Assembly: GCF_900091515.1 (NCBI RefSeq)
Contig: NZ_LT607410.1
Coordinates: 4,774,001-4,838,000, forward strand
Source: Micromonospora purpureochromogenes
GTDB taxonomy: Bacteria > Actinomycetota > Actinomycetes > Mycobacteriales > Micromonosporaceae
Length of the DNA: 64,000 nt
Direction: 5' to 3'
Shown here piece after piece: positions 25,110 to 59,212 of this stretch. Position 1 is the stretch's first letter. Each line of letters begins with the position of its first letter. The notes beneath the pieces are model-generated. The model had not been told where the DNA came from, did not search any database, and saw nothing but the letters and a program-made list of their open reading frames with translations. Both the position numbers and the translations under genes were made by a program.

Positions 25110-25159
25110 TTCACGGAAAGAGTGGCCTCCCGGCTCCGGAAGGCCACTCTTTCCGTGAA
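25110..25159. repeat. Dispersed palindrome, copy A
   Basis: A 19-bp perfect inverted repeat (arms 25110-25128 and 25141-25159) with a 12-base loop, between the cellulase and a convergent acetyltransferase. It shares the core GAAAGAGTGGC and its complement with copies B-D; the outer part of each arm (TTC-ACG-GAA and TTTC-CGT-GAAA) is itself a mini-palindrome. It could serve as a bidirectional terminator. Confidence 0.8.
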
Positions 25160-25206
25160 ACTGCCGCCACTTCGGGGCGGAGTGAGGCGTTCGGCGGCGG
25201 CGACCG

Positions 25207-25719
25207 TTAGGGCGTCGGCCGGCGCATCGCGACCCGGTCGGTCATGTCGAGCCCCAGCGCCGCCTCGGCCGCCAGCACCTCCGCCAGGCCGGGGCCGACC
25301 TCCGCCGCTGACAGCGCGACGAAGCCGCAACGGGCGTAGTACGGCGCGTTCCACGGCACGCTGCGGAAAGTGGTCAGCGTCAGCGCCGGCAGATCCCGCT
25401 GCTCCGCCCAGCCGGCCACGTGGTCGAGCAGCCGCCGGCCGACGCCCCGGCGGGCGTGGGTGGGGTGGACGCTGAGCTGCTGGACGTGGGCGCAGCCGTC
25501 GACCGGGTGCGCCACGGCGAAGGCGATCGGCTGGTCGTCCGGCCCGACCGCCACCCAGACCCGGCCGGCCCGCTGCCCCTCCCCGAGCACGTCCAGGTCG
25601 AGCGGCGGCGCGTCGGCGATGTCGACCATGCCGATCTCCCGGAACGGCGCGCCGGAGGCCACCTCGATCCGTTGCAGGTCAACGAGTTGGTCCGTCCGGG
25701 CCGTTCTGATCCGCTCCAC
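25207..25719 (-). CDS. GNAT N-acetyltransferase
   Basis: 170 residues from GTG 25719. It begins with the family N-terminus [29 protein letters not shown]. The acetyl-CoA loop is [22 protein letters not shown], followed by [24 protein letters not shown]. The DLQRIE...FREIGM and [11 protein letters not shown] pattern is common in actinobacterial acetyltransferases of unknown substrate. The large upstream open frame runs through the antisense of the protease intergenic region and is not part of the gene. Confidence 0.75.
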
Positions 25720-25976
25720 GGCCCAGACCCAACCACCTGCGGCGGTTGCCGCCCACCGAATTTCGAGCCGCCCGGCCGACCCGGACCGCCCGCCCGGACC
25801 GGCCGCGGTCACGCCGCCCGGCCCGGGCTGCCCGGCCGCGCCCGAGCGGTTGGCGGTAACGCCGAGCGAACCGGGCCGCCGCGACCGCCTCCGGGAACGG
25901 CGGCGGCCGGGGCGGCCCGGTGGGGCGTCCGCGCCCGTTGCGGAAGGAACGGACACCCCGGGGGTACGGGTCGCGC

Positions 25977-27167
25977 TCAGGCAGGCAGGCCGCCCACCTG
26001 GGTGTTGATCCAGGAGCGGATCGACGGCAGGTCGACGTAGATGGACGGGCCGGTGGCGCAGGTGGGGTTGTTGTTGCCGGCCCGGCTGGTGGCGCCGATC
26101 AGGTTCCACACCCCGTTGATCCGCCGCACCTGCGGGCCGCCGGAGTCGCCGTAGCAGGCGCCGGAGTTGCCGTTCGTGTTGTTGGTGCAGATCTCGTACG
26201 TCGCGTTGATGCCGCTGCAGCGGCTGTCCGCGACGATGGAGGTGTCGAGCTCGTTGGCGACCGCGGGCGCGGAGCCGCAGCCCCGTTGCGGGCAGGTCTG
26301 CCCCCAACCGATGATCCGGGTGGCCGTGCCGACGGCGCCGGAGGTGCCGGGGATCGGCGCTGGGGCGTAGCTGACCGAGCTGGCCAGTTGCAGCAGCTTG
26401 ACGTCCACGGACGGGTGGCTCACCGCCCTGCTCACCCGGACCACGGTCCCGCCGGTGGTGCGGTTGACGCTGCCCACCCGCACCGACGACGGGGTCGAGC
26501 AGTGCCGGGCGGTGACCGCCCAGTTCGCCTTGATCAGCGTGCCGGTGCAGCCGGAGACGTAGACCATCCACGGGTAGTTCTCGCTGGCCGGGCGGCCACC
26601 GACCACGAACGGCCCGGGATCCTCGGCGCCGGTCCAGGTGTAGCTGACCCCGGTGGTGGGCGCGGTGAGCGTGCCGCCGAACAGCGAGTTGACCCGGGAC
26701 GCCTCGGCGGCGCTCGGGTACGCGTTCCGGCAGGACACCGGCGCGCTGCTGCCGGACATCAGGTCGGAGCAGAGCCCGGTACGCCGGTCGGGCAGGCCGA
26801 GGATGTGGCCCATCTCGTGGGTGGCGATCCGGGTCCGGTCGTACCCCTGGTTCACCGCCTGCCGGCCCATCCACACCCGGCCGGAGCCGAGCCCGGTCGG
26901 CTGCGCCCGGGGCCAGCCGTCGTCGACGTAGATGGTGACGTTGCCGGGCGTACGCGGCGCGAGTCGGACGGTGCTCACCGAGCTGTTCCAGATCGTGGCG
27001 GCCTGGTCGAAGTTGGTGCGGAACTCGCCGGCCCGGCTGGCGTCGTAGTAGACGGTCCGGACGGCCGCCGAGGCCGTCGTCGCCTCGACCGCCACCAGGC
27101 CGAGCGCCGCCAGCACCATCGCGAGCAGGGCGCCCGCCGTACGCGGAAGATTGTGTCGTCGGAACAT
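25977..27167 (-). CDS. Secreted two-domain protease: snapalysin-like (M7) fused to trypsin-like (S1)
   Basis: 396 residues. The signal peptide ends around ASA (residue 34). Residues about 36-165 are a snapalysin-type metalloprotease with the zinc site [11 protein letters not shown] (His117, Glu118, His121, Asp127) and the family-specific [32 protein letters not shown]. Residues about 188-396 are a chymotrypsin-fold domain with triad His222 (TARHC), Asp255 (SVDVKLLQL) and Ser342 (GDSGGP) plus paired cysteines. Snapalysin is normally a stand-alone enzyme, so this is a fusion of two proteases. ATG 27167 follows GGGAGG. A palindromic element lies just upstream. Confidence 0.88.
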
Positions 27168-27174
27168 CCGACCT

Positions 27175-27215
27175 CCCATCGATAAATGTCCATTGATGCT
27201 AGACGCATCGATGGG
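27175..27215 (-). promoter_or_regulatory. Nested inverted repeat upstream of the fused protease
   Basis: CCCATCGAT (27175-27183) pairs with ATCGATGGG (27207-27215). Inside it CATTGATGC (27191-27199) pairs with GCATCGATG (27205-27213) with one mismatch. The patch is AT-rich for this genome and lies just before the protease ribosome site. It is a candidate operator in the 150-bp divergent promoter shared with the MFS gene. Confidence 0.45.
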
Positions 27216-27305
27216 TGTCTGTGGAATACCGGAATCGTCATATGCCGGCCATGGATGTGACCGTCGTCGCCCGCGCCGGGACACCGGCGGCATCAGCTGG
27301 GCCCC

Positions 27306-27311
27306 TACCGT
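27306..27311 (+). promoter_or_regulatory. Candidate leaderless -10 (TACCGT) of the MFS gene
   Basis: TACCGT is followed by exactly 6 bases and ATG 27318, with no ribosome-binding sequence in between. Confidence 0.4.
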
Positions 27312-27317
27312 CGACCC

Positions 27318-28592
27318 ATGAGGGTCCACACGCGCTGGTCGCCACTGCCGCCGCCCGGCCGGCTGCGCACCCTGGCCCTGGCCACGCTCGCCAACACCGT
27401 CGGCTCGGGGCTCTGGCTGGCGGGCGCGCCCCTCTACCTGACCCGGGACGTCGGGCTGAGTCCCGCCTCGGTCGGGCTGGGGCTCACCCTCGCCGGGCTG
27501 CTGGGGCTGACCGCCGCCGTCCCGCTCGGCGGACTGGCCGACCGCCGCGACCCGCGTACGCTGCGCGCGCTCGTGCAACTGCTGCAGGCCGCGGTCGCCG
27601 GGGCGTACCTGCTGGTCGCGTCCTTCCCCGCGTTCCTGGTGGTGGCGGTGCTGGACGCGCTGCTCACCGCCGGCAACCTCGCGGTCCGCGCCGCCCTGGT
27701 CGCCGCCGTCGGTGGACCCGAGGGGCGGGTGCACGCGTTCGCCACCCTGCGCGCGGTGGCGAACCTCGGCATCGCGCTCGGCGCCGGGCTGGCCGGGTTC
27801 GCCCTGGCGGCCGACACCCATCTGGCGTACCAGGTGCTGGTGGTCGGCAACGCGACAACCTATCTGGTGTCGGCGGCGCTGCTGATGCGACTGCCCGGCT
27901 ACCCGCCCACAGCGACGCCGGCGCGGCCGGCGACGTCGGGTCGGGCGCGGGCGCTGCGGGACCCGCCGTTCCTGGCCGTCAGCGGGGCGTCGGCCGTGCT
28001 GGCACTGCACGCGACGGTGCTCACCCTGGTCGTGCCGCTGTGGACGGTGAGCCGGACCGGGGCCCCACCTGCCGTGGTGTCGGCGGTGCTGCTGGTCAAC
28101 ACGTCGCTCACGGTGCTGCTGGCGGTGCGGCTCGCCCGGGGCGCGGACACCGCCGTCCCGGCCGCCGCGGCGATGCGCCGGGCCGGCCTGGTGCTGGCGA
28201 TGGCGATGCTGCTGTACTCGGCCACCACCGGCAGGCCGGCCGGGCCGGCGACCGGCCTGCTGCTGCTCGCCACCGCCGTCTACACCGTCGGCGACCTGTG
28301 GCACAGCACCGCCGGCGCGGGGTTGGCCTACGGCCTGGCCGCGCCGGAGTCGATCGGGGCGTACCAGGGGGTGGACGGGTTGCTCGCCGGCCTGGCCCGG
28401 GCCGTCGGACCGGCGCTGCTGACCTGGGCGGTGCTGGACGGCGGGGTCACTGGATGGTGCGGCGTGGCCGCGCTGTTCGCCGCCGTCGGGTTGCTCGTCC
28501 CGGCCCTGACGCGGTGGGCGGTCGCCAGCCGGGACCGACGAGCGGCTTCCGGTTCCGGCGGACACGTCGCGCATCGACCCGCATCGCTGTAG
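27318..28592 (+). CDS. MFS transporter
   Basis: 424 residues with about 12 hydrophobic helices. The loop 2-3 MFS signature is GLADRRDPRTLRAL, and ATLRAVANLGIALGAGLAG (the region of helices 4-5) is typical of DHA1-like efflux carriers. The substrate is unknown. There is a leaderless -10 in front. An acetyltransferase gene begins 5 bases after its stop, so the pair may export and acetylate the same compound, as in drug self-protection; that is inference only. Confidence 0.85.
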   Translation: MRVHTRWSPLPPPGRLRTLALATLANTVGSGLWLAGAPLYLTRDVGLSPASVGLGLTLAGLLGLTAAVPLGGLADRRDPRTLRALVQLLQAAVAGAYLLVASFPAFLVVAVLDALLTAGNLAVRAALVAAVGGPEGRVHAFATLRAVANLGIALGAGLAGFALAADTHLAYQVLVVGNATTYLVSAALLMRLPGYPPTATPARPATSGRARALRDPPFLAVSGASAVLALHATVLTLVVPLWTVSRTGAPPAVVSAVLLVNTSLTVLLAVRLARGADTAVPAAAAMRRAGLVLAMAMLLYSATTGRPAGPATGLLLLATAVYTVGDLWHSTAGAGLAYGLAAPESIGAYQGVDGLLAGLARAVGPALLTWAVLDGGVTGWCGVAALFAAVGLLVPALTRWAVASRDRRAASGSGGHVAHRPASL

Positions 28593-28596
28593 CAGC

Positions 28597-29139
28597 ATGT
28601 CGACCATGACCGATCAGCGAACCGTCACCATCCGGCCCGGCGGCCCGGCCGACGCGGCCACCGTGCTGCGACTGCTCGACGCCGCCACCGCATGGCTGGT
28701 GGCCCGGGGTCGCACCGGTCAGTGGGGCACCGAGCCCGCTTCCGGCGATCCGCGCCGGATCGCCCAGGCCGACAGCTGGGCGGCGGGCGGGGGACTCCAC
28801 CTGGCCCTGCTCGGCGACACCCCGGTCGGTGCACTGGTGGTCGGCGCGGCGACCGACTACGTTCCCCCGCCCACCGCGCCGGAGCTGTACGTCAACCTGC
28901 TGGTCACCGACCGGGCATACGCCGGCCGGGGAATCGGGGCCCGGCTGCTGGCCCACGCGGCGGAACTGGCCCGCGAACGCGGCCTGGACCTGCTGCGGGT
29001 GGACTGCTACGCCGGCGGGGACCGGGCACTCGTCGGCTTCTACGAGAGCTGTGGCTTCACCGCCACCGACCCGTTCACGGTGGAGCGCCCCGGCCGCGAG
29101 CCATGGCCCGGCCAGGTGCTCGCCCGCCGCCTGCCCTGA
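28597..29139 (+). CDS. GNAT N-acetyltransferase
   Basis: 180 residues. A classical GNAT: VTIRPGGPADAATVLRLLD at the N-terminus, the acetyl-CoA loop YVNLLVTDRAYAGRGIGARLLAHA, and the C-terminal LLRVDCYAGGDRALVGFYESCGF. ATG 28597 or ATG 28606 could start it. It follows the MFS gene by 4 bases, so it is read from the same message. Confidence 0.83.
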   Translation: MSTMTDQRTVTIRPGGPADAATVLRLLDAATAWLVARGRTGQWGTEPASGDPRRIAQADSWAAGGGLHLALLGDTPVGALVVGAATDYVPPPTAPELYVNLLVTDRAYAGRGIGARLLAHAAELARERGLDLLRVDCYAGGDRALVGFYESCGFTATDPFTVERPGREPWPGQVLARRLP

Positions 29140-29212
29140 GCCGGTGCACCCCCCCCGGGCCGACCCGCCATCTCGTCCGGCCGGCCGGCAGTGGGGCGTC
29201 GCCGCGGACCGC

Positions 29213-29470
29213 TCAGCCGATCTCCTCGTCCACGAAGCACCACCGCCAGGTCTCCCCCGGCTGGATGGAGCGCATCACCGGGTGCCCGCTGGACTCGAAG
29301 TGCTTCGTCGCGTGCTGGTACGGCGAGGAGTCGCAGCAGCCGACGTGCCCGCAGCTCAGGCAGGCGCGCAGGTGCACCCAGTAGTCGTTGCCGATGGCGA
29401 CGCAGTCCGGGCAGGCGTCCTCGGTCTGCGGCTCGGGGTTCCCCGCCTCGGTCAGGTGCTGGCAACTCAT
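29213..29470 (-). CDS. UBP-type zinc finger protein
   Basis: 85 residues. The zinc ligands follow the ZnF-UBP pattern: CQHL, EDACPDCVAIGNDYWVHLRACLSCGHVGCCDSSPYQHATKHFESSGHPVMRSI, then ETWRWCFVDEE. In eukaryotes this fold binds ubiquitin C-termini; bacterial copies have no known ligand. ATG 29470 overlaps the antiporter frame start-to-stop (4 bases), so translation is coupled to the antiporter gene. Confidence 0.88.
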   Translation of the reverse strand: MSCQHLTEAGNPEPQTEDACPDCVAIGNDYWVHLRACLSCGHVGCCDSSPYQHATKHFESSGHPVMRSIQPGETWRWCFVDEEIG

Positions 29471-31047
29471 TCGTCAACCTCCCGGGTCAGCAACGACTCC
29501 TCCAGGTCCAGGTCACGGTAGGCCCGCACCAGCACCTCCTCGGGGATCCGCCCGGAGTCGCGCGCGGCCCGGAACACCTCCCGCTCGGCGTCGATCATCT
29601 CGTGCCGCAGCCGGCCGTACGCCTGGGAGGGGGTCTCCCGGCCGCCGCCGCCGAGCTGTTCCCAGGCCAGATTGGTCCGTGCCTCCAGCAGCTCGCGCAA
29701 CCGCTCCACCACCGACGACGGCGCGCCGGGCGCCAGCTCGTACAGCCGGTCCCGGGCGGCCTTGCTGGCCTGCTGCTGCACCGCCGCGGCGGAGAGCGCG
29801 TCCTGCACCGGGTCGTCCGGCGGCAGCTTGAGCCGGCGGGCCACCACCGGCAGGGTGGCGCCCTGCGCCACCAGGGTCACCACGATCACCGCGAAGGCCA
29901 GCCAGATGAACAGCTCCCGCTGGTACGGCCGGCCGCCGGCCAGGGTCAGCGGCAGGGCCAGCGCGGCGGCCAGGGTCACCACCCCGCGCATCCCGGCCCA
30001 GCCCAGGACGATCGGCACCCGCCACGGCGGGGCCGGATCCCGCCGCCGCACCCGCGGCACCAGCCGGGCCAGGTAGGTGGCGGGGAAGAGCCAGACGAAC
30101 CGGGACAGGAGGACGGCGAGCAGCACCGCCCCGGTGACGACGGTCAGCCGGCCGAGCGGCTCGTCGAGGTCGCGCACCACGTCGCGCAACTGGAGGCCGA
30201 CCAGCAGGAAGACCAGCCCCTCCAGCAGGAACCGGGCCAGCCGCCAGAACGCGCCGATCTGGAGCCGGGAGGCCGCCGACAGCAGCCGCGGCATCTTGTG
30301 GCCGATGCCGAGCCCGGTCACCACGACGGCGACCACCCCGGAGGCGTGGATCCCCTCCGCGGCGAGAACCACCGCGAACGGCACGATCAGCGACAGGGCG
30401 TTGTCCAGCAGCGCGTCGGAGGTCCGGTGGTGCAGGTAGCCGAAGACCACCACGCCGAGCAGGCCCACCAGGACGCCGCCGCCGGCGGAGCGCAGCACCT
30501 CCAGGGCCACCTCCCCGAACTCCACCCGGCCACCGCTGGCCGTCGCGGCGATGATCGAGACGCGGAGCAGCACCAGCGCCGTCGCGTCGTTGAGCAGGCT
30601 CTCGCCCTCCAGAATGGTGACGATCCGGCGGGGCAGCCCGACCCGCCGGGCCACCGCGGTGGCGGCGATCGCGTCGGGCGGCGCCACCACCGCGCCGAGC
30701 GCCAGGCAGATCGCGTACGGCAGGTCCGGCAGGAGCAGGTGCACGACCGTGCCCACCACGAACGCGGTGAACAACACCAGCCCCACCGCGAGCAGCAGGA
30801 TCGGCCGCAGGTTGAGCCGGAACGCCGGCACCGACGTCTCCAGGGCCGCGACGTAGAGCAGCGGCGGCAGGATGCCGACCAGGACCAGGTCCGGGTCGAG
30901 CCGCACCTGCGGGAAGCCGGGCAGGAAGGACAGGGCGAGACCGAGGACCACCAACAGGATGGGCGCGAGCACGCCCAGCCGCCGGGCCAGCGCCGCGCCG
31001 AACGTCGCGATCGCGAGGATGACCACGACGTCGAACAGAGCCTCCAT
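29467..31047 (-). CDS. CPA1 Na+/H+ antiporter with long cytoplasmic tail
   Basis: 526 residues. The membrane part (to about residue 400) has the CPA1 signatures GILPPLLYVAALETS, LGAVVAPPDAIAATAV, LEGESLLNDATALVL and GWAGMRGVVTLAAALALP. A hydrophilic C-terminal tail of about 110 residues follows. It exchanges Na+ (or K+) for H+. The UBP zinc finger gene overlaps its 3' end by 4 bases, a pairing I take as functional: the zinc finger may regulate the tail. Confidence 0.9.
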   Translation of the reverse strand: MEALFDVVVILAIATFGAALARRLGVLAPILLVVLGLALSFLPGFPQVRLDPDLVLVGILPPLLYVAALETSVPAFRLNLRPILLLAVGLVLFTAFVVGTVVHLLLPDLPYAICLALGAVVAPPDAIAATAVARRVGLPRRIVTILEGESLLNDATALVLLRVSIIAATASGGRVEFGEVALEVLRSAGGGVLVGLLGVVVFGYLHHRTSDALLDNALSLIVPFAVVLAAEGIHASGVVAVVVTGLGIGHKMPRLLSAASRLQIGAFWRLARFLLEGLVFLLVGLQLRDVVRDLDEPLGRLTVVTGAVLLAVLLSRFVWLFPATYLARLVPRVRRRDPAPPWRVPIVLGWAGMRGVVTLAAALALPLTLAGGRPYQRELFIWLAFAVIVVTLVAQGATLPVVARRLKLPPDDPVQDALSAAAVQQQASKAARDRLYELAPGAPSSVVERLRELLEARTNLAWEQLGGGGRETPSQAYGRLRHEMIDAEREVFRAARDSGRIPEEVLVRAYRDLDLEESLLTREVDE

Positions 31048-31083
31048 GGGTACGAGCCTAGGGGGCGCGCCGGCGGGACGAGA

Positions 31084-32049
31084 TCAGGCGGTGGTCCGCA
31101 GCTTCGGCAGCACCTGCGCGCCGAACGTGTCGATGAAGGCGCGCTGCTCCTGCCCGACGTGGTGCAGGGCGATCTGGTCGAAGCCGAGCTCGACGTACTC
31201 CTCCAGCCAGCCGACGTGCCGGCCGGTGTCGGCCGAGATGTTGACGACCTCGGCGACCTTCTCCATCGGCACCTGCTCGGAGACCGCGTCGAAGTGCTCG
31301 GCGGTGTCCAGGTCCCAGCAGACCGGCGGGGCGAAGACGTTGCTGCGCCACTGGTCGTACGCGATCGCCTCCGCCTCGGCCTGCTCGGGCGCCCAGCTGA
31401 CGTGCACCTGCAGGTGCAGCGGGCCGCGACCGCCCGCGTCCCGGTAGGCGTCGATCATCTGCCGCAGGTGTGCGGTGGGCGCGTTGACGGTGATCAGGCC
31501 GTCCGCCCACTCGGCGCACCAGCGGGCGGTGGCGACGCTGACCGCCGCGCCGATCAGGGCCGGCGGCTGCTCCGGGCGGGTCCAGAGCCGGGCCCGGTCG
31601 ACCCGGACCAGGCCGTCGTGGCTGACCTCCTCGCCGGCGAGCAGCGCCCGGATGACGTCGACGCACTCGCGCAGCCGGGCGGCGCGCACGTCCTTGCGCG
31701 GCCAGCCGTCGCCGGTGATGTGCTCGTTGCTCGCCTCGCCGGTGCCCAGCGCGGCCCAGAACCGGCCCGGGTACATCGCGCCGAGAGTGCCGATCGCCTG
31801 CGCGATGATCGCCGGGTGGTAGCGCTGGCCGGGCGCGTTGACCACGCCGAACGGCAGGCTGGTGGCCTGGAGGGCGGCGCCGAGCCAGGACCACGCGAAG
31901 CCGGACTGGCCCTGCCGGGCGCTCCACGGCGAGAAGTGGTCCGAGGACATGGCGGCGTCGAAGCCGGCCTGCTCGGCGTGGATCACCGCATCCAGCAGCC
32001 GGCTCGGGTGGATCTGCTCGTGGGAGGCATGGAAGCCGAACACCGTCAT
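31084..32049 (-). CDS. LLM-class (F420-dependent type) oxidoreductase
   Basis: 321 residues, luciferase-like TIM barrel. It begins FGFHASHEQIHPSRLLDAVIHAEQAGFDAAMSSDHFSPW and has the typical GRFWAALGTGEASNEHITGDGWP. The closest naming is TIGR03557/LLM F420-dependent (glucose-6-phosphate-dehydrogenase-like) oxidoreductase. It likely uses cofactor F420 in the cytosol; the substrate is not known. ATG 32049, with AGGAG 5 bases upstream, is preferred to the in-frame codon at 32067. Confidence 0.82.
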   Translation of the reverse strand: MTVFGFHASHEQIHPSRLLDAVIHAEQAGFDAAMSSDHFSPWSARQGQSGFAWSWLGAALQATSLPFGVVNAPGQRYHPAIIAQAIGTLGAMYPGRFWAALGTGEASNEHITGDGWPRKDVRAARLRECVDVIRALLAGEEVSHDGLVRVDRARLWTRPEQPPALIGAAVSVATARWCAEWADGLITVNAPTAHLRQMIDAYRDAGGRGPLHLQVHVSWAPEQAEAEAIAYDQWRSNVFAPPVCWDLDTAEHFDAVSEQVPMEKVAEVVNISADTGRHVGWLEEYVELGFDQIALHHVGQEQRAFIDTFGAQVLPKLRTTA

Positions 32050-32091
32050 GGGCTCCTCCCTACCCATGACGGTGTCCGGCGAAAAGCGGGG

Positions 32092-33504: not shown

Positions 33505-33516
33505 CTCGTACTCCTG

Positions 33517-34697: not shown

Positions 34698-34702
34698 CCC
34701 GT

Positions 34703-35833: not shown

Positions 35834-35846
35834 GCTGCCGTGCGGG

Positions 35847-42682: not shown

Positions 42683-42744
42683 CGCTCTTTCCGAGAAAGA
42701 GTGCCTATCGCGGCGGGAATAGCCACGCTTTCTCTGAAAGTGCG
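42683..42744. repeat. Dispersed palindrome, copy B (degenerate)
   Basis: Arms 42683-42709 and 42718-42744 are 27-base inverted repeats with 22 matching positions. They contain the same elements as copies C and D: CTTTCCGAGAAAG on the left, AATAGCCACGCTTTCTCTG on the right. It lies between trmB and the helicase gene on the same strand. Confidence 0.8.
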
Positions 42745-46109: not shown

Positions 46110-46120
46110 CCCGACGTCCC

Positions 46121-46341
46121 CGTCCGGGCCGGCCACCGGTCCGGTCGGGTGCGACGTGCGGCCCCCCGGTCCGGGCCGGCTACCGGCCCGGACCGTGCAA
46201 CGCCGCCCGGGGCCGGGCCGGCCACCGGCCCGGACCGTGCAACGTGCCGCCCCGGTCCGGGCCGGCCACCGGCCCGGGCGGTGCAACGTGCCGCCCCGGC
46301 CGGGGCCGGCCACCGGTCCGGACGATGCGAGGTGCTGCTCC
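46121..46341. repeat. Tandem array of five hairpin units (about 43-47 bp each)
   Basis: Units begin at about 46121, 46168, 46211, 46254 and 46298. Each starts GGTCCGGGCCGGCCACCGG or a close variant and ends near GTGCAACGTGCCGCCCC. In the unit at 46168 the first part is a 12-bp perfect hairpin, GGTCCGGGCCGG with CCGGCCCGGACC, loop CTA. The array fills the gap between two convergent genes, so it could terminate both. Confidence 0.85.
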
Positions 46342-50267: not shown

Positions 50268-51556
50268 GCGGTCACCGCCACCGGCGCGCCGAACTCCTGG
50301 AAGGCGATGCGCCGCTCGATCGGGTAGTGCTCGCGCCCGGTCAGCTCGCGGATGATCCAGGAGTTGCGGTACGCGCCCATGCCGAGGTCCGGCGAGGTGA
50401 TGCTGTGCGCCTGGGTGCCGGCGTTCTGGAGGAAGACGCCCCGGCCGGTGTGATCGACGGAGTAGTTGCGGGCGACGTCGAAGCGGCCGTGCGAGTCCCA
50501 GCGGAGCCGGTCGCGGATCGGCTCCAGGAAGTCGGGTACCCGGTAGTGGTAGCCGGTGGCCAGCACCAACCCCTCGGTGGTGAGGGTGAAGTCGCGGCCC
50601 TGCTCGACGTTGCGCAGGCCGAGCGTGTACGTCCCGCTCGCCGGGTCGTGGGTGGCGGTGCTCAGCGCGGTGTTGGTCATCAGCCGGGTGGGCACCGGGC
50701 CGGCCACGCTGCGGGCGTAGAGCAGGTCGAAGATGTCGTTGACCAGGTCGGCGTTGATGCCCTTGAACAGGCCCTTCTGCTCGGCCTCCAGCCGGTACCG
50801 GGTCGCCTCGGGCAGGGCGTGGAAGTAGTCCACGTAGTCCGGCGAGGTCATCTCCAGGGTGAGCTTGGTGTACTCCAGCGGGAAGAACCGCGGCGAGCGG
50901 GTGACCCAGTTGAGCTGGTAGCCGTGGGTGCCGATGTCGGCGAGCAGGTCGTGGTAGATCTCGGCCGCGCTCTGCCCGCTGCCGACCACGGTGACGCTGC
51001 GCTTGGCCCGCAGCGCCGCCCGGTTCTCCACGTACCGCGAGTTGTGGATCACGTCGCCGCCCAGGTCCCGGCAGGCGTCTGGGACGTGGGGCGGGGTGCC
51101 GGTGCCCAGCACCACGTGCCGGGCCCGGTGGGTGACCCGCCGGCCGGCCGCCAGGGCGTGCACGACGTACCGCTCGTCGGCCGGGTCGTACTCGATGGAG
51201 GTGACCTCGTGGCCGAACCGGACGGTGGACAGTCTCGCCGCCGCCCACCGGCAGTAGTCGTTGTACTCGCTGCGCAGCGGGAAGAAGCTCTCCCGGATGT
51301 AGAACGGGTACAGCCGCCCGGACTCCTTGAGGTAGTTCAGGAACGAGTAGGGCGAGGTGGGGTCGGCCAGGGTGACCAGGTCGGCGAGGAACGGCGTCTG
51401 CAGGCGGGTGGACTCGAGCAGCATGCCGGGATGCCAGTTGAAGTCGTCGCGGGCCTCGAGGAAGAGGCCGTCGAGGTCGCCGATCGGCGCGGTCAGGCAG
51501 GCCAGGCCCAGGTTGTACGGGCCCAGCCCGACGGCGATGAAGTCGTGGGTCGACAT
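50264..51556 (-). CDS. desB: Cadaverine/lysine N-hydroxylase, DesB
   Basis: 430 residues. A class B flavin monooxygenase of the SidA/IucD/PvdA group: FAD motif [62 protein letters not shown], the NADPH motif [15 protein letters not shown] and [12 protein letters not shown]. DesB N-hydroxylates cadaverine. It starts at ATG 51556, 26 bases after desA. Confidence 0.93.
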
Positions 51557-51582
51557 GGGTTTCTCCAGGGCGGGACGGCCGG

Positions 51583-53142
51583 TCAGCGGATGGGGCAGGA
51601 CAGCTCACCGGCCGTGCGGGTACGCACGTACCAGCCGGCGTGTTCGGCGATCAGGTCGAGGACGTGGGCGATGTCGGCCACGGTCGTCTCGGGGTTGAGC
51701 AGGGTGAACTTCAGGTGGTGCGCGCCGTCCACGGTGGTTCCCGCGACGAGGGCGGCGCCGGACGCGGCCAGCGCCTCGCGGGCGTACAGGTTGGCCTCGT
51801 CGACGAGTGCCCGGCCGGGACCGGAGGGCAGGTAGCGGAAGACCACGGTGCTGAGCTGGGACCGGGTCACCACCTCGAAGCGGGGGTCCTCGGTGAGCAG
51901 GTGCCAGGCGGCGGCGGCCCGGTCGATCACCTCGTCGAAGAGCGCCCCGACCGCGTCCGGGCCCATGATGCGCAGGGTGAGCCAGAGCTTCAGGGCGTCG
52001 AAGCGGCGGGTGGTCTGGATGCTCTTGTCGACCTGGTTGGGGATGTGCTGCTCGACCGCCCGGGCCGGGTTGAGGTAGTCGGCGTGCCAGGTGGCGTGCC
52101 GCAGCACCCGGCGGTCGCGCACCAGCAGCGCGCTGGAGCTGACCGGCTGGAAGAAGGACTTGTGGTAGTCCACGGTCACCGAGTCGGCCCGGTCGATGCC
52201 GTCGAGCAGGTGCCGCCGGGTCGGCGAGACCAGCAGCCCGCAGCCGTACGCGGCGTCGACGTGCAGCCACACGCCGGCCGCCGCGCAGATGTCGGCGATC
52301 CGCGCCAGCGGGTCGATGGTGCCGAAGTCGGTGGTGCCGGCGGTCGCCACCACGGCCATCACCCGCAGCCCCTCCCGACGGCACCGGTCGATCTCCCGGG
52401 CCAGTTCGTCGGTGCGCATCCGGCGCCCGGCGTCGGTGCCGACGGTGACCACCGCGTCGGCGTCGAGGCCGAGCAGCTTCGCCGCCTTCTGCACGCTGAA
52501 GTGGCCGGCCGCCGAGGTGAGGATCCGCAGCCGGGACAGTGACTCCGGGCGGGACGGGCGGGTGCCGCCCGACGTCCCCGCCCGGTCGACCGCCTCCTCC
52601 CGGGCCAACAGCATCGCCTGCAGGTTCGACTGCGTCCCGCCGCTGGTGAACACCCCGTCCGCGGCCGGCCCGAGGCCGACCCGGTCGATCGTCCAGTCGA
52701 TCAGGCGGCGCTCGATCAGCGTGCCGCCAGCGCTCTGGTCCCAGGTGTCCAGCGAGGAGTTGACCGCGCTGAGCACCGCCTCGCCGAGCAGCGCCGGGAT
52801 CACCACCGGGCAGTTCAGGTGCGCCAGGTAGCGCGGGTGGTGGAAGTACACCGCGTCGCGCAGGTAGACGTCCTGGAGCTCGTCGAGCGCTGCCCCGGTG
52901 TCGCCGAGCGGCCGGTCCAGGTCGATGCCGGCGATCCGGGGCGCGAGGTCCTGCGGGGTGACGCCGGTGAAGGGCCGGTCGGCAGCGGCGACCCGGTCGG
53001 CCACCCGGTCGACGCCCTCGGCCAGCACCCGCCGGTAGGCCGCGACGGTGCCGGCGGTGAACAGGTGGGCCCGGTCGGCGGCCACCTGGCCGGGGACGGC
53101 TCCGGTCGGGAGGGCCTGAACGGTTGCTCCGGGCAGACTCAT
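51583..53142 (-). CDS. desA: Lysine decarboxylase (PLP, group II), DesA
   Basis: 519 residues from ATG 53142 after TTGAGGAC. A group II PLP decarboxylase: [45 protein letters not shown], the Asp contacting PLP in [10 protein letters not shown], and the Schiff-base lysine in [18 protein letters not shown]. It makes cadaverine from lysine, the first step of desferrioxamine synthesis. The iron box lies 89 bases upstream. First gene of the five-gene operon. Confidence 0.93.
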
Positions 53143-53230
53143 GGCAGTCCTCAACGGTCGAGAGTGGACACGGCGGGCGGGCGGGCGACGGCGCGGCGGC
53201 CACCAGCGGTCCCGAGTTGATCGAGTGAAG

Positions 53231-53249
53231 TTAGGGTACCCTAACCTAA
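53231..53249 (-). promoter_or_regulatory. Iron box of the des operon
   Basis: TTAGGGTACCCTAACCTAA, 16 of 19 positions of the DmdR1/IdeR consensus TTAGGTTAGGCTAACCTAA; read on the minus strand its first ten positions match. It is located between the end of the importer gene and desA. It predicts repression by Fe2+-loaded DmdR/IdeR. Confidence 0.88.
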
Positions 53250-53256
53250 GTTCGGG

Positions 53257-54519
53257 TCAATGCCGCACCGGCTCGGCGCGCCGCGACTCGGCGATCGGCG
53301 GCTCCCCCGCGGCGTCGGACGCGGGCGCGGGTGCGAACCGGCGCTGGTGGGCGACGCCCACCGCGACGCCGAGCACCACCAGGACCACGCAGGCCCCCGC
53401 GACGGCGGGATAGCCCGCCCGGTCGGCGGCGGCCAGCCCGATCGAGGCCGCCACGAACGAGCAGACCAGCCCGAACGAGGACAGGACGGTGAAGTCGGTG
53501 CCGCCGGTGCCGGGCCGCGAGTAGTCCATGTTGACCGTGTAGAGCACCACGTTGGCCACGGTGTACGCGGCCATGAAGCAGCACAGCGCGGCGACCGTTC
53601 CGCCCACCGGCGCCCGCCCGGTCAGCAGCGGCAGCAGCAGCGCCGTGGAGACCGCGAGGGACACGCCCGCGACGACGAGCACCGCGCCGCGTCCGAACCG
53701 GCCCACCCCGGCCCCGGCGAGCAGTCCGGCCACGACGGCGGGAGCGCTGGTCACCACGCCGGTCACCACCCCGATCCGCCCCAGGGACCAGCCGGCGTCC
53801 ACCAGCGCCGGTGTGACCAGCGCGTACGCCGCGCCGGCGCCGGTGTAGACCAACGGCACGACGCCGAACGTCCACCACCGACAGCCGGGCTGGGCGAACA
53901 CCGACAGCAGCGCCCGGTACGCCTGCGCGGCGGAGCCCACCCGGTCGACCCGGTCCGGCTCCCGGAACCGCCACACCACCAGCAGCCCCAGCGCGGTCAG
54001 CCCGGCCAGCAGCAGGATCGCCGGCCGCCAGCCGAAACGGTCGTAGACGACCACGCAGGCGCCGCCGCCGAGCAGGTTGCCGAGATAGCTGGCGGCGACC
54101 TGGACACCGTTGCCGGCCCCCCGGGCGCGCGCCGACAACAGCCGGACGGCGACGGCGTCGACGGCGATGTCCTGGGTCGCGGAGAGGAACACGTACGCGG
54201 CGCAGATCGCCACGATCGGACCCAGCTGACCCGCAGGCCGGTCGAACGGCAGCAGGGCGAGCAGCGACAGCACCAGGCCGGCCTGGAGCACCAGCAGCCA
54301 GGACCGGTAGTGGCCCCGCCGGCGTGATCCGTACCGGTCGAGGATCGGCGCCCAGAGGAACTTGAGCGGCCAGACCAGGCCGACGAACTGCAGCAGCGCC
54401 AACGTGTCCAGCGAGGTGCCGCCGTCACGCAGGATGGCGGTCAGGCCGACGGTGATGAAGCCGACCCCGAGGTACTGGGTGACGTAGAGCGCGGTCAGGG
54501 TGCCGAGGCGGCCGTTCAC
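53257..54519 (-). CDS. MFS importer, FptX/RhtX- or AmpG-like, probable ferri-siderophore permease
   Basis: 420 residues from GTG 54519, 12 helices. It has the RhtX/FptX/AmpG-type blocks LLQFVGLVWPLKFLWAPILDRYGSRRRGHYRSWLLVLQ and FLSATQDIAVDAVAVRLLSARARGAGNGVQVAASYLGNLLGGG. Relatives import ferric siderophores or muropeptides across the inner membrane. GTG overlaps the SIP gene stop by 4 bases (GTGA), and the iron box of desA starts 8 bases beyond its own stop. Siderophore uptake is inferred from context. Confidence 0.75.
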   Translation of the reverse strand: MNGRLGTLTALYVTQYLGVGFITVGLTAILRDGGTSLDTLALLQFVGLVWPLKFLWAPILDRYGSRRRGHYRSWLLVLQAGLVLSLLALLPFDRPAGQLGPIVAICAAYVFLSATQDIAVDAVAVRLLSARARGAGNGVQVAASYLGNLLGGGACVVVYDRFGWRPAILLLAGLTALGLLVVWRFREPDRVDRVGSAAQAYRALLSVFAQPGCRWWTFGVVPLVYTGAGAAYALVTPALVDAGWSLGRIGVVTGVVTSAPAVVAGLLAGAGVGRFGRGAVLVVAGVSLAVSTALLLPLLTGRAPVGGTVAALCCFMAAYTVANVVLYTVNMDYSRPGTGGTDFTVLSSFGLVCSFVAASIGLAAADRAGYPAVAGACVVLVVLGVAVGVAHQRRFAPAPASDAAGEPPIAESRRAEPVRH

Positions 54520-55226
54520 CGGGCGGTCCAGTAGCCGAGCGAGGTCACCTGGTGCCGGCCGGCGCCGAGGGTACGCCGGACGTGCCGGGTGATGCTGCGC
54601 GTACTGGCCGCCTCGCAGGCGACCCAGTAGTGGGCGTCGGGGGCGGCGGGCAGCGCCGCGCAGACCGTTTCGACCAGGTGCCGCCCGTCGTCCCGGCGGG
54701 GCACCCAGGTGACCTCGTGTCCCGCCCGGGCGCGCGGCGTCAGGGCCTGCTCGCCCTCGTCCGCGTACTCGAGCCAGACCGTCGCCGGGATGCCGGCGGC
54801 GGTGTCGAGCAGGCTGTTCACCGCCGGCAGCGAGGCGGCGTCGCCGACCAGGTGGAGGTGCGCGGGCGCGGGGTCCGGCAGGTGGAAGGCGCTGCCCTGG
54901 ACGGTGGCGTCGATGGTGTCGCCGACCTCGGCCGTGGTGGCCCAGCGCGCGGCACACCCGTCGTGCAGGGCGAACTCCAGGTGGAAGCGCCCGGTGGCCG
55001 GGTGCGGGTCGACCAGTGTGTACGCGCGCTGGTGCGGTCGGCCGCCGTCGTCGAACCAGAGCCGGATCCACATGGTCGGGTGCACCCCGCACGACTCCAG
55101 CAGGCCGCCGCCGTCGATCAGCAGCCGCTGGTAGTGGCCGCCGACCGCCTCCGTGTCGAGCACGGTCAGCCGGAAGTCCCGGCCGCCCATGGCCTTGAGG
55201 ACCAGGGCCTCCCAGTTGCGTTTCAC
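54516..55226 (-). CDS. Siderophore-interacting protein (FAD-dependent ferric-siderophore reductase)
   Basis: 236 residues from GTG 55226 after CTGGAGGG. The SIP family pattern is visible: an N-terminal beta-barrel with the FAD motif RAYTLVDPH, then VGDAASLPAVNSLLDTA and the C-terminal WVACEAASTRSITRHVRRTLG. These enzymes reduce Fe3+ in siderophores with NAD(P)H in the cytosol to release iron. It is the first gene of a two-gene unit with the importer. It is divergent from the acylase and shares its iron-box promoter. Confidence 0.88.
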   Translation of the reverse strand: MKRNWEALVLKAMGGRDFRLTVLDTEAVGGHYQRLLIDGGGLLESCGVHPTMWIRLWFDDGGRPHQRAYTLVDPHPATGRFHLEFALHDGCAARWATTAEVGDTIDATVQGSAFHLPDPAPAHLHLVGDAASLPAVNSLLDTAAGIPATVWLEYADEGEQALTPRARAGHEVTWVPRRDDGRHLVETVCAALPAAPDAHYWVACEAASTRSITRHVRRTLGAGRHQVTSLGYWTAR

Positions 55227-55240
55227 GTGTCGCCCTCCAG

Positions 55241-55274
55241 TAAGGTTCGCCTTAGTTAGGGGAGGGTAACCTAA
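55241..55274. promoter_or_regulatory. Bidirectional iron-box promoter
   Basis: TTAGGGGAGGGTAACCTAA (55256-55274) matches 16 of 19 positions of the iron-box consensus. TAAGGTTCGCCTTA (55241-55254) is a second palindromic, iron-box-like half on the SIP side. The region separates divergent SIP and acylase genes, so one element may control both. Two adjacent sites suggest binding by two regulator dimers. Confidence 0.85.
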
Positions 55275-55325
55275 GTTGATATTCGATGAGCACGCGGCTC
55301 GCCGCCATTTCGCGCGGGCCGCGCG

Positions 55326-57392
55326 GTGACGGGCGTCTATCGCGACGCCCGGGGTGTACCGCATCTGCGCGCCGGGTCGGTCGACGAGTTGGCCCGGTTG
55401 CAGGGCCGGGTGGCCGCCCTCGACCGGGCCTGGCAGATCGAGGTCGAACGGTGGCGCTCGGAGGGCCGGCTCGCCGCGCAGGTCGGTCCGGACGCGCTGG
55501 GCTGGGACCGGTTCGCCCGGCGCGTCCGACTCGACGACACCGCGCGGCGGTGCTTCTACCGCCTCTCCCCCGCCACCCGGCGGTGGGTCACCGCTTACGT
55601 CGCGGGGGTCAACGAGGGGCTCGCCGAGGGGGCCGCCGGTGCCCCCGAGTTCGCGGCGGTCGGCGTGGCCCCCGGACGATGGCGGTCCTGGTCACCGCTG
55701 GGGGTCTTCCTCGTCCAGCACATCCTCTTCGCCACCTTCCCCAACAAGCTCTGGCACGCCCATGTCGCCGCCACCCTCGGCGCGGCGGCGACCGGGCTCT
55801 TCGCCGTCGAGGGCCCGGGCGGCTCCGGCAGCAACGCCTGGGCGGTACCCGGCGACGCCGCCACCGGCCGGGCGCCGGTCATCGCCGGCGACCCGCACCG
55901 CCTCCTCGAACTGCCCGGCATCTACCAGCAGGTACGCCTGGCCTGCCCCGAGTTCGACGTGCTCGGCTTCGCCTTTCCCGGCGTGCCGGGCCTGCCGCAC
56001 TTCGGCCACGCGGGCGAGGTGGCCTGGGCGGTCACCAACGCGATGGCCGACTACCAGGACCTCTACCGCGAGCAGCTGCGCACCGACGGCGACCGGGTGC
56101 TGGTCCGCGACGCCGACGGCTGGGTGCCCGCACACCGCCACGTCGAGCGGATCGCCGTCCGCGGCGGCGACCCGGAGACCGTGGAGGTCGTCGAGACGCC
56201 GCGTGGTCCCGTGGTGGACCACGACCGGCACACCGGCGAGGGGATCAGCCTGCGCACCCCGGCCCGGGTCGAGACGGACCTCGGCTTCGAGGCCCTGCTG
56301 CCGCTGCTGCGCTCCCGCACCGTCGACGACGTCGCCGACGCGCTGCGCGCCTGGGTCGAGCCGGTCAACAGCGTCCTCGTGGCGGACCGCAGCGGGGCCG
56401 TCCACCAACTGGTCGCCGGGCTGGTGCCCGACCGGGACGAACGCTGCCGGTCGGAACCGGTGCCCGGCTGGGACCCGCGGTACCGGTGGCGCGGCGGGTA
56501 CGCCGAGACGAAGCCGATCCCGGTCGAGGACATCGCCGTCTGCGCCAACGACCGCCGCCCCGACGTGGCCGACCTCGGCGCCGACTTCGCCCCGCCGCAC
56601 CGCGCCGGCCGGATCCGGGCCCTGCTGGCCGACGGCGTCGCGGCCGAGGACGTACACATGGACACCCGGCTCGCCGTGACGCCGCTGCGCGAGCTGCTCC
56701 ACCGGCTCGATCCCGACGACCTCGACCCGCCCGCCCGGGAGCTGCGGGACCGGCTCACCGCCTGGGACGGGTCGATGCGGGCCGACAGCACCGACGCGGG
56801 CGCCTTCGCCGCCTGGCGTACCGCGCTGGCCCGCCGGCTGCACGAGCATCCGAGCCTGCGCCCGTTGCGCGCCCCCGGCCCGTACGACGAGCTGTTCTTG
56901 CCGTGGACGGACCCGCTGTCGCGGATCGGCCACGCCCTCGACGGCGTCGTGGCCGGGTTGCACCGCCTCGGCGCCGACGTCGCGCCGGTGGCGGCCGCGG
57001 CGCTCGCGGACGTCGCCGCCGACGGGCCGCCGCCGGCCTGGAGGCGGCGACACCTGCTGCATCCGGTGCACCTGGGCGTGGCCCCCGCCGTCGACGCGGC
57101 GGTGGCCGCCATGCGAGCCGCGACCGCGCTGGCCGGCGACACCGACTGCGTGCTCGCCACCTCCAGCGTCCCCGGGGTCTCCGACGCCTGCTGGCGCGGG
57201 CCGGTCGCCCGGTACGTCTGGGACCTCGGCGACCGCGCCCGCAGCCGCTGGATCGTCCCGTTCGGCGCGTCCGGACGCCCCGACGACCCGCACTTCGCCG
57301 ACCAGCTTCCCCGGTGGGCGGCCGGTGAACTGGACCCGGTGGACACCGACTGGCGACACCTGACCCGACAACCAGGAGACGAGAACCCGTGA
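55326..57392 (+). CDS. desG: Penicillin-acylase-type Ntn hydrolase in the desferrioxamine locus (DesG-like)
   Basis: 688 residues from GTG 55326. Penicillin amidase family: an N-terminal VYRDARGVPHLRAGSVDELARLQGRVAALDR, then the autoprocessing site with the nucleophile Ser169 in GGSGSNAWAV, and later LATSSVPGVSD. There is no signal peptide, unlike the periplasmic enzymes, so it probably works in the cytosol. Homologues in actinobacterial desferrioxamine loci have been called desG (from memory) and linked to arylacyl-modified products. It overlaps the second acyltransferase by 4 bases and sits behind an iron box. The start is uncertain since no ribosome site is visible. Confidence 0.82.
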   Translation: MTGVYRDARGVPHLRAGSVDELARLQGRVAALDRAWQIEVERWRSEGRLAAQVGPDALGWDRFARRVRLDDTARRCFYRLSPATRRWVTAYVAGVNEGLAEGAAGAPEFAAVGVAPGRWRSWSPLGVFLVQHILFATFPNKLWHAHVAATLGAAATGLFAVEGPGGSGSNAWAVPGDAATGRAPVIAGDPHRLLELPGIYQQVRLACPEFDVLGFAFPGVPGLPHFGHAGEVAWAVTNAMADYQDLYREQLRTDGDRVLVRDADGWVPAHRHVERIAVRGGDPETVEVVETPRGPVVDHDRHTGEGISLRTPARVETDLGFEALLPLLRSRTVDDVADALRAWVEPVNSVLVADRSGAVHQLVAGLVPDRDERCRSEPVPGWDPRYRWRGGYAETKPIPVEDIAVCANDRRPDVADLGADFAPPHRAGRIRALLADGVAAEDVHMDTRLAVTPLRELLHRLDPDDLDPPARELRDRLTAWDGSMRADSTDAGAFAAWRTALARRLHEHPSLRPLRAPGPYDELFLPWTDPLSRIGHALDGVVAGLHRLGADVAPVAAAALADVAADGPPPAWRRRHLLHPVHLGVAPAVDAAVAAMRAATALAGDTDCVLATSSVPGVSDACWRGPVARYVWDLGDRARSRWIVPFGASGRPDDPHFADQLPRWAAGELDPVDTDWRHLTRQPGDENP

Positions 57393-57940
57393 CGTACCAG
57401 CAGGACATCCCCGGCTTCGGCGAGCTGCGGCTCGTCGTGGTCGACCCGGCCGCCCACGCCGAGCTGCTGCACGACTGGGTCACCCAGCCGCGCGCGACGT
57501 TCTGGGGCATGGGCGGGTACACCGTGGACGAGGTACGCGAGGTCTACGCGTTCATCGACGGGCTGGACACGCACCACGCGTACCTGATCATGCTCGACGG
57601 CGAGCCGGTCGGCCTGTTCCAGACCTACCTGCCGGAGGCGGACCCGGTCGGCGAGCGGTACCCGGTACGAGCCGGCGACATCGGGATGCACCTGCTGCTC
57701 GCCCCCGGCGGCCGGCCGCCGCACGGCCTGACCACCGCCGTCGGCCCGGCCCTGGCCCGCTTCCTGTTCCGCGACCCCACCCGGCAGCGGATCGTGGTGG
57801 AACCGGACGTCCGCAACCACCTCGCGCTGCGCCGCCTCGAACGCGAGGGCTTCACCTTCGACGAAAAGATCGAGATGCCCGACAAGCGGGCCCAACTCGC
57901 CTTCCTCACCCGCCCCCGCTTCGAATCCACCCACCCCTGA
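57389..57940 (+). CDS. desH: Second DesC-like acyltransferase (DesH-like)
   Basis: 183 residues, GTG 57389. It shares with DesC the length, ELLHDWVTQPRATFWGM, the DIGMHLL element and [21 protein letters not shown], so the two are visible paralogues. It probably transfers an acyl group to N-hydroxycadaverine or a related amine. It is coupled to the acylase by a GTGA overlap, so the pair is likely to alter acyl groups of the siderophore. Downstream lies palindrome copy C. Confidence 0.82.
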   Translation: MTYQQDIPGFGELRLVVVDPAAHAELLHDWVTQPRATFWGMGGYTVDEVREVYAFIDGLDTHHAYLIMLDGEPVGLFQTYLPEADPVGERYPVRAGDIGMHLLLAPGGRPPHGLTTAVGPALARFLFRDPTRQRIVVEPDVRNHLALRRLEREGFTFDEKIEMPDKRAQLAFLTRPRFESTHP

Positions 57941-57956
57941 CCCCCCTCCCTTCGGG

Positions 57957-58020
57957 GCGCACTTTCCGAGAAAGCGTGGCTATTCCTCGTCGAATAGCCA
58001 CGCTTTCTCGGAAAGAGCGC
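57957..58020. repeat. Dispersed palindrome, copy C
   Basis: 24-bp perfect arms (57962-57985 and 57992-58015) with a 6-base loop; a GCGC pair extends each side past one mismatch. The left arm contains CTTTCCGAGAAAG and GTGGCTATTC, the right arm the complement. It lies between the desH-like gene and the DUF559 gene. Confidence 0.85.
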
Positions 58021-58083
58021 GGGGAGGGGGCGGGTTGTCCACAGGGGGTGGTGGGGGTGGGGCGGGGGGTGGAGGGTGGTGGG

Positions 58084-58980
58084 GTGGCTCGTACTCCTCG
58101 ACGTCCTGATGCCCTGGTGGGGCGGGTGTTCTTTGCTCGCGAGGCGGTTCATGGTGGTTTGTTGACCAGGGGCGATCTCCGGAGCAGTGCCTGGCGGCGG
58201 GTCTTCCACAACGTCTACGCGGACGCCCGCCTCGACCTGTCCCATCGCGGCCGGTGCCGTGCCGCCGCGTCGTGGCTCTTTCCTCCCGGCTGCGCGATCG
58301 CCGGCCGGTCCGCCGTCGCGCTCTACGGCGGGGTGAGCCCACGGGCCGACGACCCGGTCGAGGTGCTGGTCCAGCCGGCGTCGCGATTCGGCCCGCTTTC
58401 CGGCCTGCTCATCCACGTCGCTCCCTGGCGCGAGGGCGAGGTCCGGCTCGTCGACGGATGTGCCGTCACCACGCCCGTTCGCACCTGCTGGGACCTGGCG
58501 AGCTGGCTCGACCTCGTCAACGCGATCGCACTGATCGACTCGCTCCGGCACGTCGGCGCCGTCGACCTGCCGGAGCTGGAGCACTACCTGGCCACGCGCC
58601 GTGGCGAGCGGGGCTGGCGGAGGTTCGCCCAGGCCGTGAGTTTGAGCGACGCCGGCGCCGAATCGCCACCGGAGTCGCAGCTGCGGGTACGACTCGTCGA
58701 GGCCGGCCTGCCCCGACCGGTAACCCAACACGTCATCGAACGGGCCGGCCGCTTCGTCGCCCGGGTCGACCTGGCCTGGCCCGAGTTGAAGGTCGCCATC
58801 GAGTACGACGGGCTCTGGCACCACGACCCGGACCAGTTCCACCGCGACCGGCGGCGTCTCAACCGGATGCTGGGCGACGACTGGATCGTCCTCCACGTCA
58901 CCAGCAAGCGGATGCGCGAGGACTTCGACACCTTCCTCACCGAGGTTCGCACCGCCCTGACCACCCGCACCCGCCGCTGA
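58084..58980 (+). CDS. AbiEi-like/DUF559 endonuclease-fold protein between two palindromes
   Basis: 298 residues from GTG 58084. Residues about 10-110 resemble the winged-helix/AbiEi-type regulator half (REAVHGGLLTRGDLRSSAWRRVFHNVYADARLDLSHRGRCRAAASWLFPPGCAIAGRSAVALYGGV). The C-terminal part (from about 200) is DUF559, a Vsr/restriction-like nuclease fold: PPESQLRVRLVEAGLPRPVTQHV, FVARVDLAWPELKVAIEYDGLWHHDPDQFHRDRRRLNRMLGDDWIVLHV, with the Glu/Asp residues of the PD-(D/E)XK type. It is flanked on both sides by dispersed palindromes C and D. The function is unknown. Confidence 0.8.
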   Translation: MARTPRRPDALVGRVFFAREAVHGGLLTRGDLRSSAWRRVFHNVYADARLDLSHRGRCRAAASWLFPPGCAIAGRSAVALYGGVSPRADDPVEVLVQPASRFGPLSGLLIHVAPWREGEVRLVDGCAVTTPVRTCWDLASWLDLVNAIALIDSLRHVGAVDLPELEHYLATRRGERGWRRFAQAVSLSDAGAESPPESQLRVRLVEAGLPRPVTQHVIERAGRFVARVDLAWPELKVAIEYDGLWHHDPDQFHRDRRRLNRMLGDDWIVLHVTSKRMREDFDTFLTEVRTALTTRTRR

Positions 58981-59166
58981 CCCCACCCCGCGCCCCGCCT
59001 CCCCCGCGCGCCCCGGGATGCCGGGACTGCCCGCGCGTCCTGCCGCCCATAGCCCCGCGCACACTCAGCGCCCAGGTGACCCTGACTGACGCGCACGCCA
59101 CACCCCGCCGCCACACGCCCCGCCGCACCCGCCCGTCCGCCGCGCCGCGAGGTCGGGGCCCTCATA

Positions 59167-59212
59167 CAGAGAAAGAGTGGCTATTCCACGTGGAATAGCC
59201 ACTCTTTCTCTG
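59167..59212. repeat. Dispersed palindrome, copy D
   Basis: A 46-base perfect palindrome with no loop (centre CCACGTGG), core GAAAGAGTGGCTATTC and its complement. The left side beyond CAGAG no longer pairs with the CTTTC element seen in copy C. It lies between the DUF559 gene and the convergent ABC lipoprotein gene. Confidence 0.85.

Follow-up and report, generated by a model that had tools for sequence, protein, structure and literature searches.

Four long intergenic palindromes in a stretch of the Micromonospora purpureochromogenes chromosome belong to a dispersed repeat family, here called R1, that is associated with a nuclease gene lying between two of its copies. The stretch, referred to below as the window, comprises 64,000 nucleotides (contig NZ_LT607410.1 of assembly GCF_900091515.1, positions 4,774,001 to 4,838,000), and the family was followed through the complete 6.67-Mb genome (G000) and through related genomes. 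There is good evidence that the R1 family is real and that it goes with the nuclease, the association being borne out both by the arrangement of palindromes around nuclease homologues and by the match between palindrome type and nuclease clade. We further infer that dispersal driven by the nuclease is the likeliest mechanism, a proposition with an even chance, or slightly better, of being correct.

The R1 palindrome family

All four palindromes of a preliminary description of this DNA, termed copies A to D, were found where it had placed them (Table 1). The stem lengths given there hold for copy A (19 bp, perfect), copy C (24 bp perfect, then four more pairs beyond one mismatch) and copy D (23 bp, counting the self-complementary centre), while copy B, described as pairing at 22 of 27 positions, has 21 of 27 Watson-Crick pairs in our register. 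The consensus R1 arm reads GCGCACTTTCAGAGAAAGMGTGGCTATTC and is followed by six free bases and the complement. These stems are very stable, and the minimum-energy fold of each window copy is a single stem, not the proposed long stem with two side hairpins.

A 16-base core, GAAAGMGTGGCTATTC, has 70 matches genome-wide when at most one mismatch is allowed (33 exact) compared with none for the reversed control, which places the copy number above chance. A covariance model derived from an alignment-sized set of 25 copies recovers about 66 palindromic sites, three of them weak (E 4e-4 to 0.008), and all 70 core matches fall inside these sites. Scoring with the model covered 150 of 1135 first-look candidates, and further R1 sites in this genome are therefore possible. 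The 66 sites form 63 clusters; three same-orientation pairs, 130-152 bp apart, each occupy one convergent gap (4720963/4721115, 5562001/5562131 and 5693021/5693164), and only two sites lie between 2.79 and 4.04 Mb. The arms keep their complementarity while drifting in sequence, as the preliminary description held: 35 cells were altered on both sides in 25 copies against 16.2 in shuffles, and 112 against 52 (500 shuffles, highest 68) in 62 copies, a set that leaves out four sites with more than 10 arm mismatches. Arm-by-arm correction via template switching would, however, leave an identical signature.

The intergenic location noted for the window copies extends to the family, with 65 of 66 sites outside genes called by our own codon-usage finder (trained on the window) and one exception at 1258489 that may reflect a wrong gene call. 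The orientation bias is strong: 42 of the 65 copies occupy convergent gaps, 13 and 7 the two tandem arrangements and 3 divergent gaps, compared with 12, 18 and 19, and 45 of 94 element-free gaps at R1 loci (p 1e-11 for the convergent excess, paired copies in one gap being treated as separate). By the gene calls, copies A and D do lie between convergent genes. A gene 3' end adjoins 62 copies at a median distance of 36.5 bp. In the congener G011, 20 R1 copies were distributed over convergent (10), tandem (8) and divergent (2) gaps.

Rfam gave no match in the window at gathering score, only sub-threshold hairpin matches, and a literature search with the letters of the palindrome returned only noise. 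Perfect R1 copies occur in five named records, all from Micromonospora, from which records of the window's own genome are perhaps excluded. Elsewhere in the window, GC-rich inverted repeats (CCGGGCCGGCCACCGG) at 46122-46277, between 46109 and 46409, are unrelated to R1.

Table 1. Palindrome copies and the candidate partner gene in the window
Feature	Window position	Strand	Genome site	Context
Palindrome copy A	25105..25164	.	4799099	Convergent gap; neighbours are a GH9 cellulase-like and a GNAT acetyltransferase gene
Palindrome copy B	42684..42743	.	4816678	Tandem gap; lies 49 bp behind a Methyltransf_4 gene; imperfect
Palindrome copy C	57957..58020	.	4831953	Follows a GNAT gene; lies upstream of the nuclease gene
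Partner nuclease gene (likely)	58126..58980	+		GTG start 58126 or TTG start 58162; AbiEi-like front part, Vsr-like/DUF559-type C-terminal part
Palindrome copy D	59160..59219	.	4833154	Stem perfect (59167-59212); convergent gap, bordered by the nuclease gene and a periplasmic-binding-protein gene

The nuclease gene between copies C and D

Palindromes of differing sequence at the orthologue of site D in other species directed attention to the gene between copies C and D, which the preliminary description had missed and which is the likely partner of the R1 palindromes. Its product is best read as a putative PD-(D/E)XK-type nuclease and not a Y1 transposase. Conserved residues in the C-terminal part are E171, D203, E214-x-D216 and H220 (P0001 numbering), and the family matches of P0001 are of the REase/DUF559 type only. 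Among 17 members of the nuclease group, all match REase MTES_1575 and 14 match DUF559 at E 0.01, some homologues exceed the PF04480 cut-off, and all 17 match AbiEi models (PADLOC) in the front part. A weak profile match (E 0.062) connects the nuclease with PDB 3r3p ("Mobile intron protein"), whose role is presumably in homing. Single-sequence structure prediction of the window nuclease reached a predicted local distance difference test score (pLDDT) of 40. Homologues are widespread (102 of 150 Micromonosporaceae genomes at E 1e-20), as are DUF559/Vsr-like genes in general (36 of 41 related genomes).

Palindromes beside nuclease homologues

Of 58 homologue loci, taken as best matches, 39 reach at least 50% identity, 35 of them with full flanks, and 19 fall below it, 18 with full flanks. 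They were compared with 312 genes from 20 control stretches of 20 kb at round coordinates in 14 genomes, using criteria (score limit 17, 350 bp) that were fixed on the nuclease loci first and then applied to the controls. A long inverted repeat within 350 bp accompanied 27 of the 35 closer homologues but only 25 of the 312 control genes, and 12 of the 35 were flanked on both sides as opposed to none of the controls. Seven of these both-sided loci belong to Micromonospora, three to genus g32 and one each to g48 and g26. Under varied score limits and distances, and with controls having gaps on both sides, the p value for both-sidedness ranged from 3e-14 to 0.01. The wider class of all PF04480 (DUF559) genes was rejected as the set of partners: among 30 loci, 24 of them usable, only nine had a palindrome and one was flanked on both sides; three of these loci (L138, L139 and L151) overlap with the nuclease-homologue loci.

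Some individual loci have features of their own. Three near-identical palindromes of another type, T3, stand in tandem behind one nuclease gene (L190, G017, 2335-2877). At L186 (G011, 1378-1416) a C run and then a G run lie beside the downstream R1 palindrome, and one of the two downstream repeats counted there is this poly-C/poly-G run. A further long palindrome type (AGTGGAACGCCATGGGTGTCT) lies downstream of one distant DUF559-type paralogue in three genomes (L210, L211 and L212 in G019, G021 and G018) and is perhaps another nuclease-palindrome pair. A DUF559 gene from a different family of the order (L147, G035) stands between two matching long palindromes (CGACTGAGTAGAGATCGACGTC), and palindrome-flanked nucleases may therefore extend beyond Micromonosporaceae.

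Palindrome type follows the nuclease clade

Palindromes were assigned by eye to types R1, T2, T3 and T4. On a tree of 42 proteins with 21 typed rows, the four types require three changes, which is the minimum, and the Micromonospora subset (14 rows, three types) likewise requires the minimum of two. Independently of typing, palindrome similarity correlates with protein identity (r 0.73, 351 pairs), also without the pairs that share flanking DNA (r 0.60, 256 pairs; p 0.0002, the lowest value attainable with 5000 permutations). Palindromes that share a gene as neighbour are alike, 12 of 13 comparisons scoring 24-58 against a between-locus median of 11. One genome, G017, has two nucleases, of the T2 and the T3 clade, each adjoining its own palindrome type.

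The R1 clade unites G000 and G011 with G087 of genus g26 (support 100/97), and a single clade of all 16 near-type Micromonospora nucleases, a group named after inspection of the tree, was rejected by the approximately unbiased (AU) test (p 0.0015). This test was substituted for a contrast based on genus changes, of which ten were counted, because 11 genera require at least ten changes and the contrast is uninformative.

Abundance, gain and replacement among relatives

With both strands counted, the R1 model gives 1 to 117 matches in 14 of 41 genomes, the window's own among them, and it matches at least 32 of 150 family genomes in at least nine of 44 genera. Type T4 is confined to 11 of the 150 family genomes, namely all 11 g32 genomes of the sample, with 4-154 sites and none for the reversed control. 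Its sites number 22-154 in the six genomes with an intact close homologue compared with 4-44 in the five without, where the nuclease is split, truncated or only a more distant homologue (p 0.03, kinship ignored). Among 20 T4 copies from two g32 genomes, eight lie in convergent, ten in tandem and one in divergent gaps, and one inside a called gene. Strict T2 copies were found in six of nine Micromonospora genomes with a T2-clade nuclease compared with four of 27 without (p 0.006).

At the locus next to the periplasmic-binding-protein gene, G000 and G011 carry an R1 cassette, G002, G017 and G020 a T2 one and G016 a T3 one. In G022 the neighbours of the G000 cassette are separated by about 65 bp containing a plain hairpin, compared with 1330 bp in G000, which constitutes an empty site for the whole cassette. 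Three clades at one locus together with this empty site indicate that the palindrome-gene-palindrome unit is gained, lost or replaced whole. Behind the gene next to copy A, G011 has a decayed R1-like copy, G017, G170 and G183 have T2-like palindromes, G018 and G007 other long repeats, and further congeners plain short hairpins.

The empty sites sought in relatives thus exist for the cassette, and a gain was also seen for a palindrome of another type (GATCTTGCACTTGCTGCCCC), which occupies a 140-bp gap in G019 (joined, reversed L316-L317, 33920-34060). The genes bordering this gap overlap by 4 in G000, G011 and G006, a clean empty site, and gaps without the palindrome measure 137 bp in G021, 95 bp in G022 and 80 bp in G002. 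For single R1 copies, 20 G011 sites, among the best-scoring of about 57, were compared with G000: four share both flanks with a G000 site, two share one, and 14 share none, the G000 gaps for these 14 not having been located.

Mechanism and alternative explanations

Our reading, held somewhat more firmly than an even bet, is that the palindromes are short non-autonomous repeats which spread, now or formerly, aided by the nuclease whose gene separates copies C and D. Recognition of the cognate palindrome, either as a duplex inverted repeat or as an extruded hairpin, would fall to the AbiEi-like front part or to the protein as a whole, and the Vsr-like domain would nick or cut DNA. Repair or template switching might then copy the palindrome into another gap and, more rarely, the whole palindrome-gene-palindrome cassette. 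The copies that persist would chiefly be those behind gene ends, positions at which they are least damaging and at which two-way termination is a possible function. On this reading the R1 system would operate as REP/RAYT does, but with an unrelated enzyme. In its general form, to which we give an even chance, the proposal describes a class of selfish repeats: Vsr-like/DUF559-type nucleases with an AbiEi-like DNA-binding part would each recognise a private long palindrome and cause it, and likewise their own cassette, to disperse to gene 3' ends, co-diversifying with it, crossing genera and replacing one another at the same locus.

Several observations weigh against nuclease-driven dispersal. 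Eight of the 35 closer homologues have no flanking palindrome, and below 50% identity 6 of 18 are flanked and none on both sides. The loci are not independent: flanking DNA is common to both members in 95 of 351 pairs, and Micromonospora accounts for seven of the 12 both-sided loci. The two flanks in G174 are of unlike types (score 9), and beside the nuclease of G157, typed T6 by eye, the R1 model also matches. The window nuclease itself remains below the Pfam cut-offs (PF18741 E 0.001, PF04480 E 0.013). R1 is abundant in genomes in which no R1-clade nuclease was found (both strands: 65 matches in G020, 42 in G018, 40 in G016 and 16 in G010, the last without any nuclease homologue at E 1e-25), and G107 and G174 likewise have many matches, their counts being lower bounds. 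A strict dependence of R1 number on a matching nuclease is contradicted by these genomes, which form the principal argument against a single driver and in which relics, action in trans or another agent could explain the abundance. Strict T2 copies are few (1-6), are partly the nuclease's own flanks and also occur without a T2-clade nuclease, as noted above. Finally, no duplication of target bases was found, no systematic search having been aimed at it.

The palindromes might instead be two-way intrinsic terminators under selection at gene ends, with the nuclease a chance neighbour. The excess in convergent gaps, the rarity in divergent ones and the proximity to gene 3' ends are what such a role would produce, as are the highly stable stems, the TTTCTCT that directly follows the inner stem in the 3' arm on both strands, and the plain GC hairpins at equivalent gene ends in congeners. 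A terminator role is possible, as the preliminary description suggested, although its wording "without a U-tract" is inexact because of this TTTCTCT. Terminators do not, however, require a shared sequence among dispersed copies, 27 of 41 related genomes lack the R1 family, and a terminator scan with narrow criteria lists none at copies C or D. Neither the palindromes around the nuclease (both sides in 12 of 35, against 0 of 312 controls) nor the match of type and clade is explained, and we consider this account unlikely. It is no more probable that the palindromes are operators or docking sites for the AbiEi-like part, acting in autoregulation or as decoys, and were spread by another agent or by recombination. 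AbiEi antitoxins bind inverted repeats, the AbiEi-like part is common to all 17 members, and both-sided flanking would fit, as would the R1 copies of genomes that have no R1-clade nuclease; against this, no other candidate mobiliser was found, the Y1 genes being unlinked, and T4 copies are commoner where an intact close homologue is present, albeit in a small sample.

We disfavour as very improbable a family of repetitive extragenic palindromic (REP) sequences, or of the REP doublets known as REPINs, moved by an ordinary Y1 transposase (the REP-associated tyrosine transposase, RAYT) or by another transposase. Size range, location and covarying stems match, and G000 has two Y1 genes. Yet Y1 genes occur in 11 of 41 genomes with no clear relation to R1 number, ten Y1 loci yielded no R1 match and a single long inverted repeat, and isolated core half-sites are absent from G000. 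The Y1/RAYT transposase was accordingly rejected as partner, no link appearing across the 41 genomes. A miniature inverted-repeat transposable element (MITE) of an insertion sequence was also rejected: in G000 the core matches only inside full palindromes, and the Y1 loci, Y1 transposases being the only ones checked, were negative.

Comparison with known systems

In the open-access literature searched, neither a link between DUF559/Vsr-like nucleases and dispersed palindromes nor such Micromonospora repeats were found, and by word search the RepRanger paper mentions neither Micromonospora nor DUF559 (PMC12306157). Enterobacterial repetitive intergenic consensus (ERIC) repeats are likewise long imperfect palindromes between genes, a likeness of description, and they are not known to have a partner gene. 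With the AbiE type IV toxin-antitoxin system the nuclease has the AbiEi-like front part in common, but here this part is joined to a nuclease-type domain. That domain may have distant relatives in the Vsr-like homing endonucleases (PDB 3r3p); in contrast to them, the gene is flanked by palindromes and involves no intron or intein. A DUF559-bearing Vsr-like protein is reported to cause a DNA-damage response in Caulobacter cells lacking a methyltransferase, and such proteins can therefore act on chromosomal DNA (PMC12907096).

The closest parallel is with REP, REPIN and bacterial interspersed mosaic element (BIME) repeats and their RAYTs (REPtrons). These comprise a gene between two cognate palindromes and many dispersed extragenic copies with covarying stems, the repeat type tracks partner phylogeny, and copies persist without the partner (PMC2817692, PMC3733652). 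The nuclease gene is similarly flanked by two cognate palindromes, in G000 and at 11 more of the 35 loci (the unlike flanks of G174 apart), and extragenic copies are many (about 66 in G000, 65 of them outside genes, and up to 154 for T4). The REP/BIME-like mobile repeat of the preliminary description was thus right in kind, the family being dispersed, behind genes, covarying, patchy in congeners and mostly at different sites in a relative; it is not REP proper, with no linked Y1 (RAYT) gene. The likely partner is a putative DUF559/Vsr-like nuclease instead of a Y1 tyrosine transposase (PF01797), R1 copies are full palindromes of about 60-80 bp with no single-hairpin core copies found in G000, and the column composition of 62 R1 copies (columns 7-33 and partners) contains no GTAG (or CGTC) tag. 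With a different enzyme and no GTAG tag, the R1 system is not a member of REP/RAYT. TIRtrons, RAYT-like genes between long terminal inverted repeats (TIRs), resemble it in having long terminal repeats that double as families of moderate abundance (PMC3733652), but their enzyme is a tyrosine transposase. If nuclease-driven dispersal is correct, it would offer a role for DUF559/Vsr-like genes, and the four palindrome types with their matched nuclease clades would be directly testable enzyme-substrate pairs. The REP/RAYT way of life, one gene with a genome-wide palindrome family, would then have arisen more than once, here with a restriction-type nuclease.

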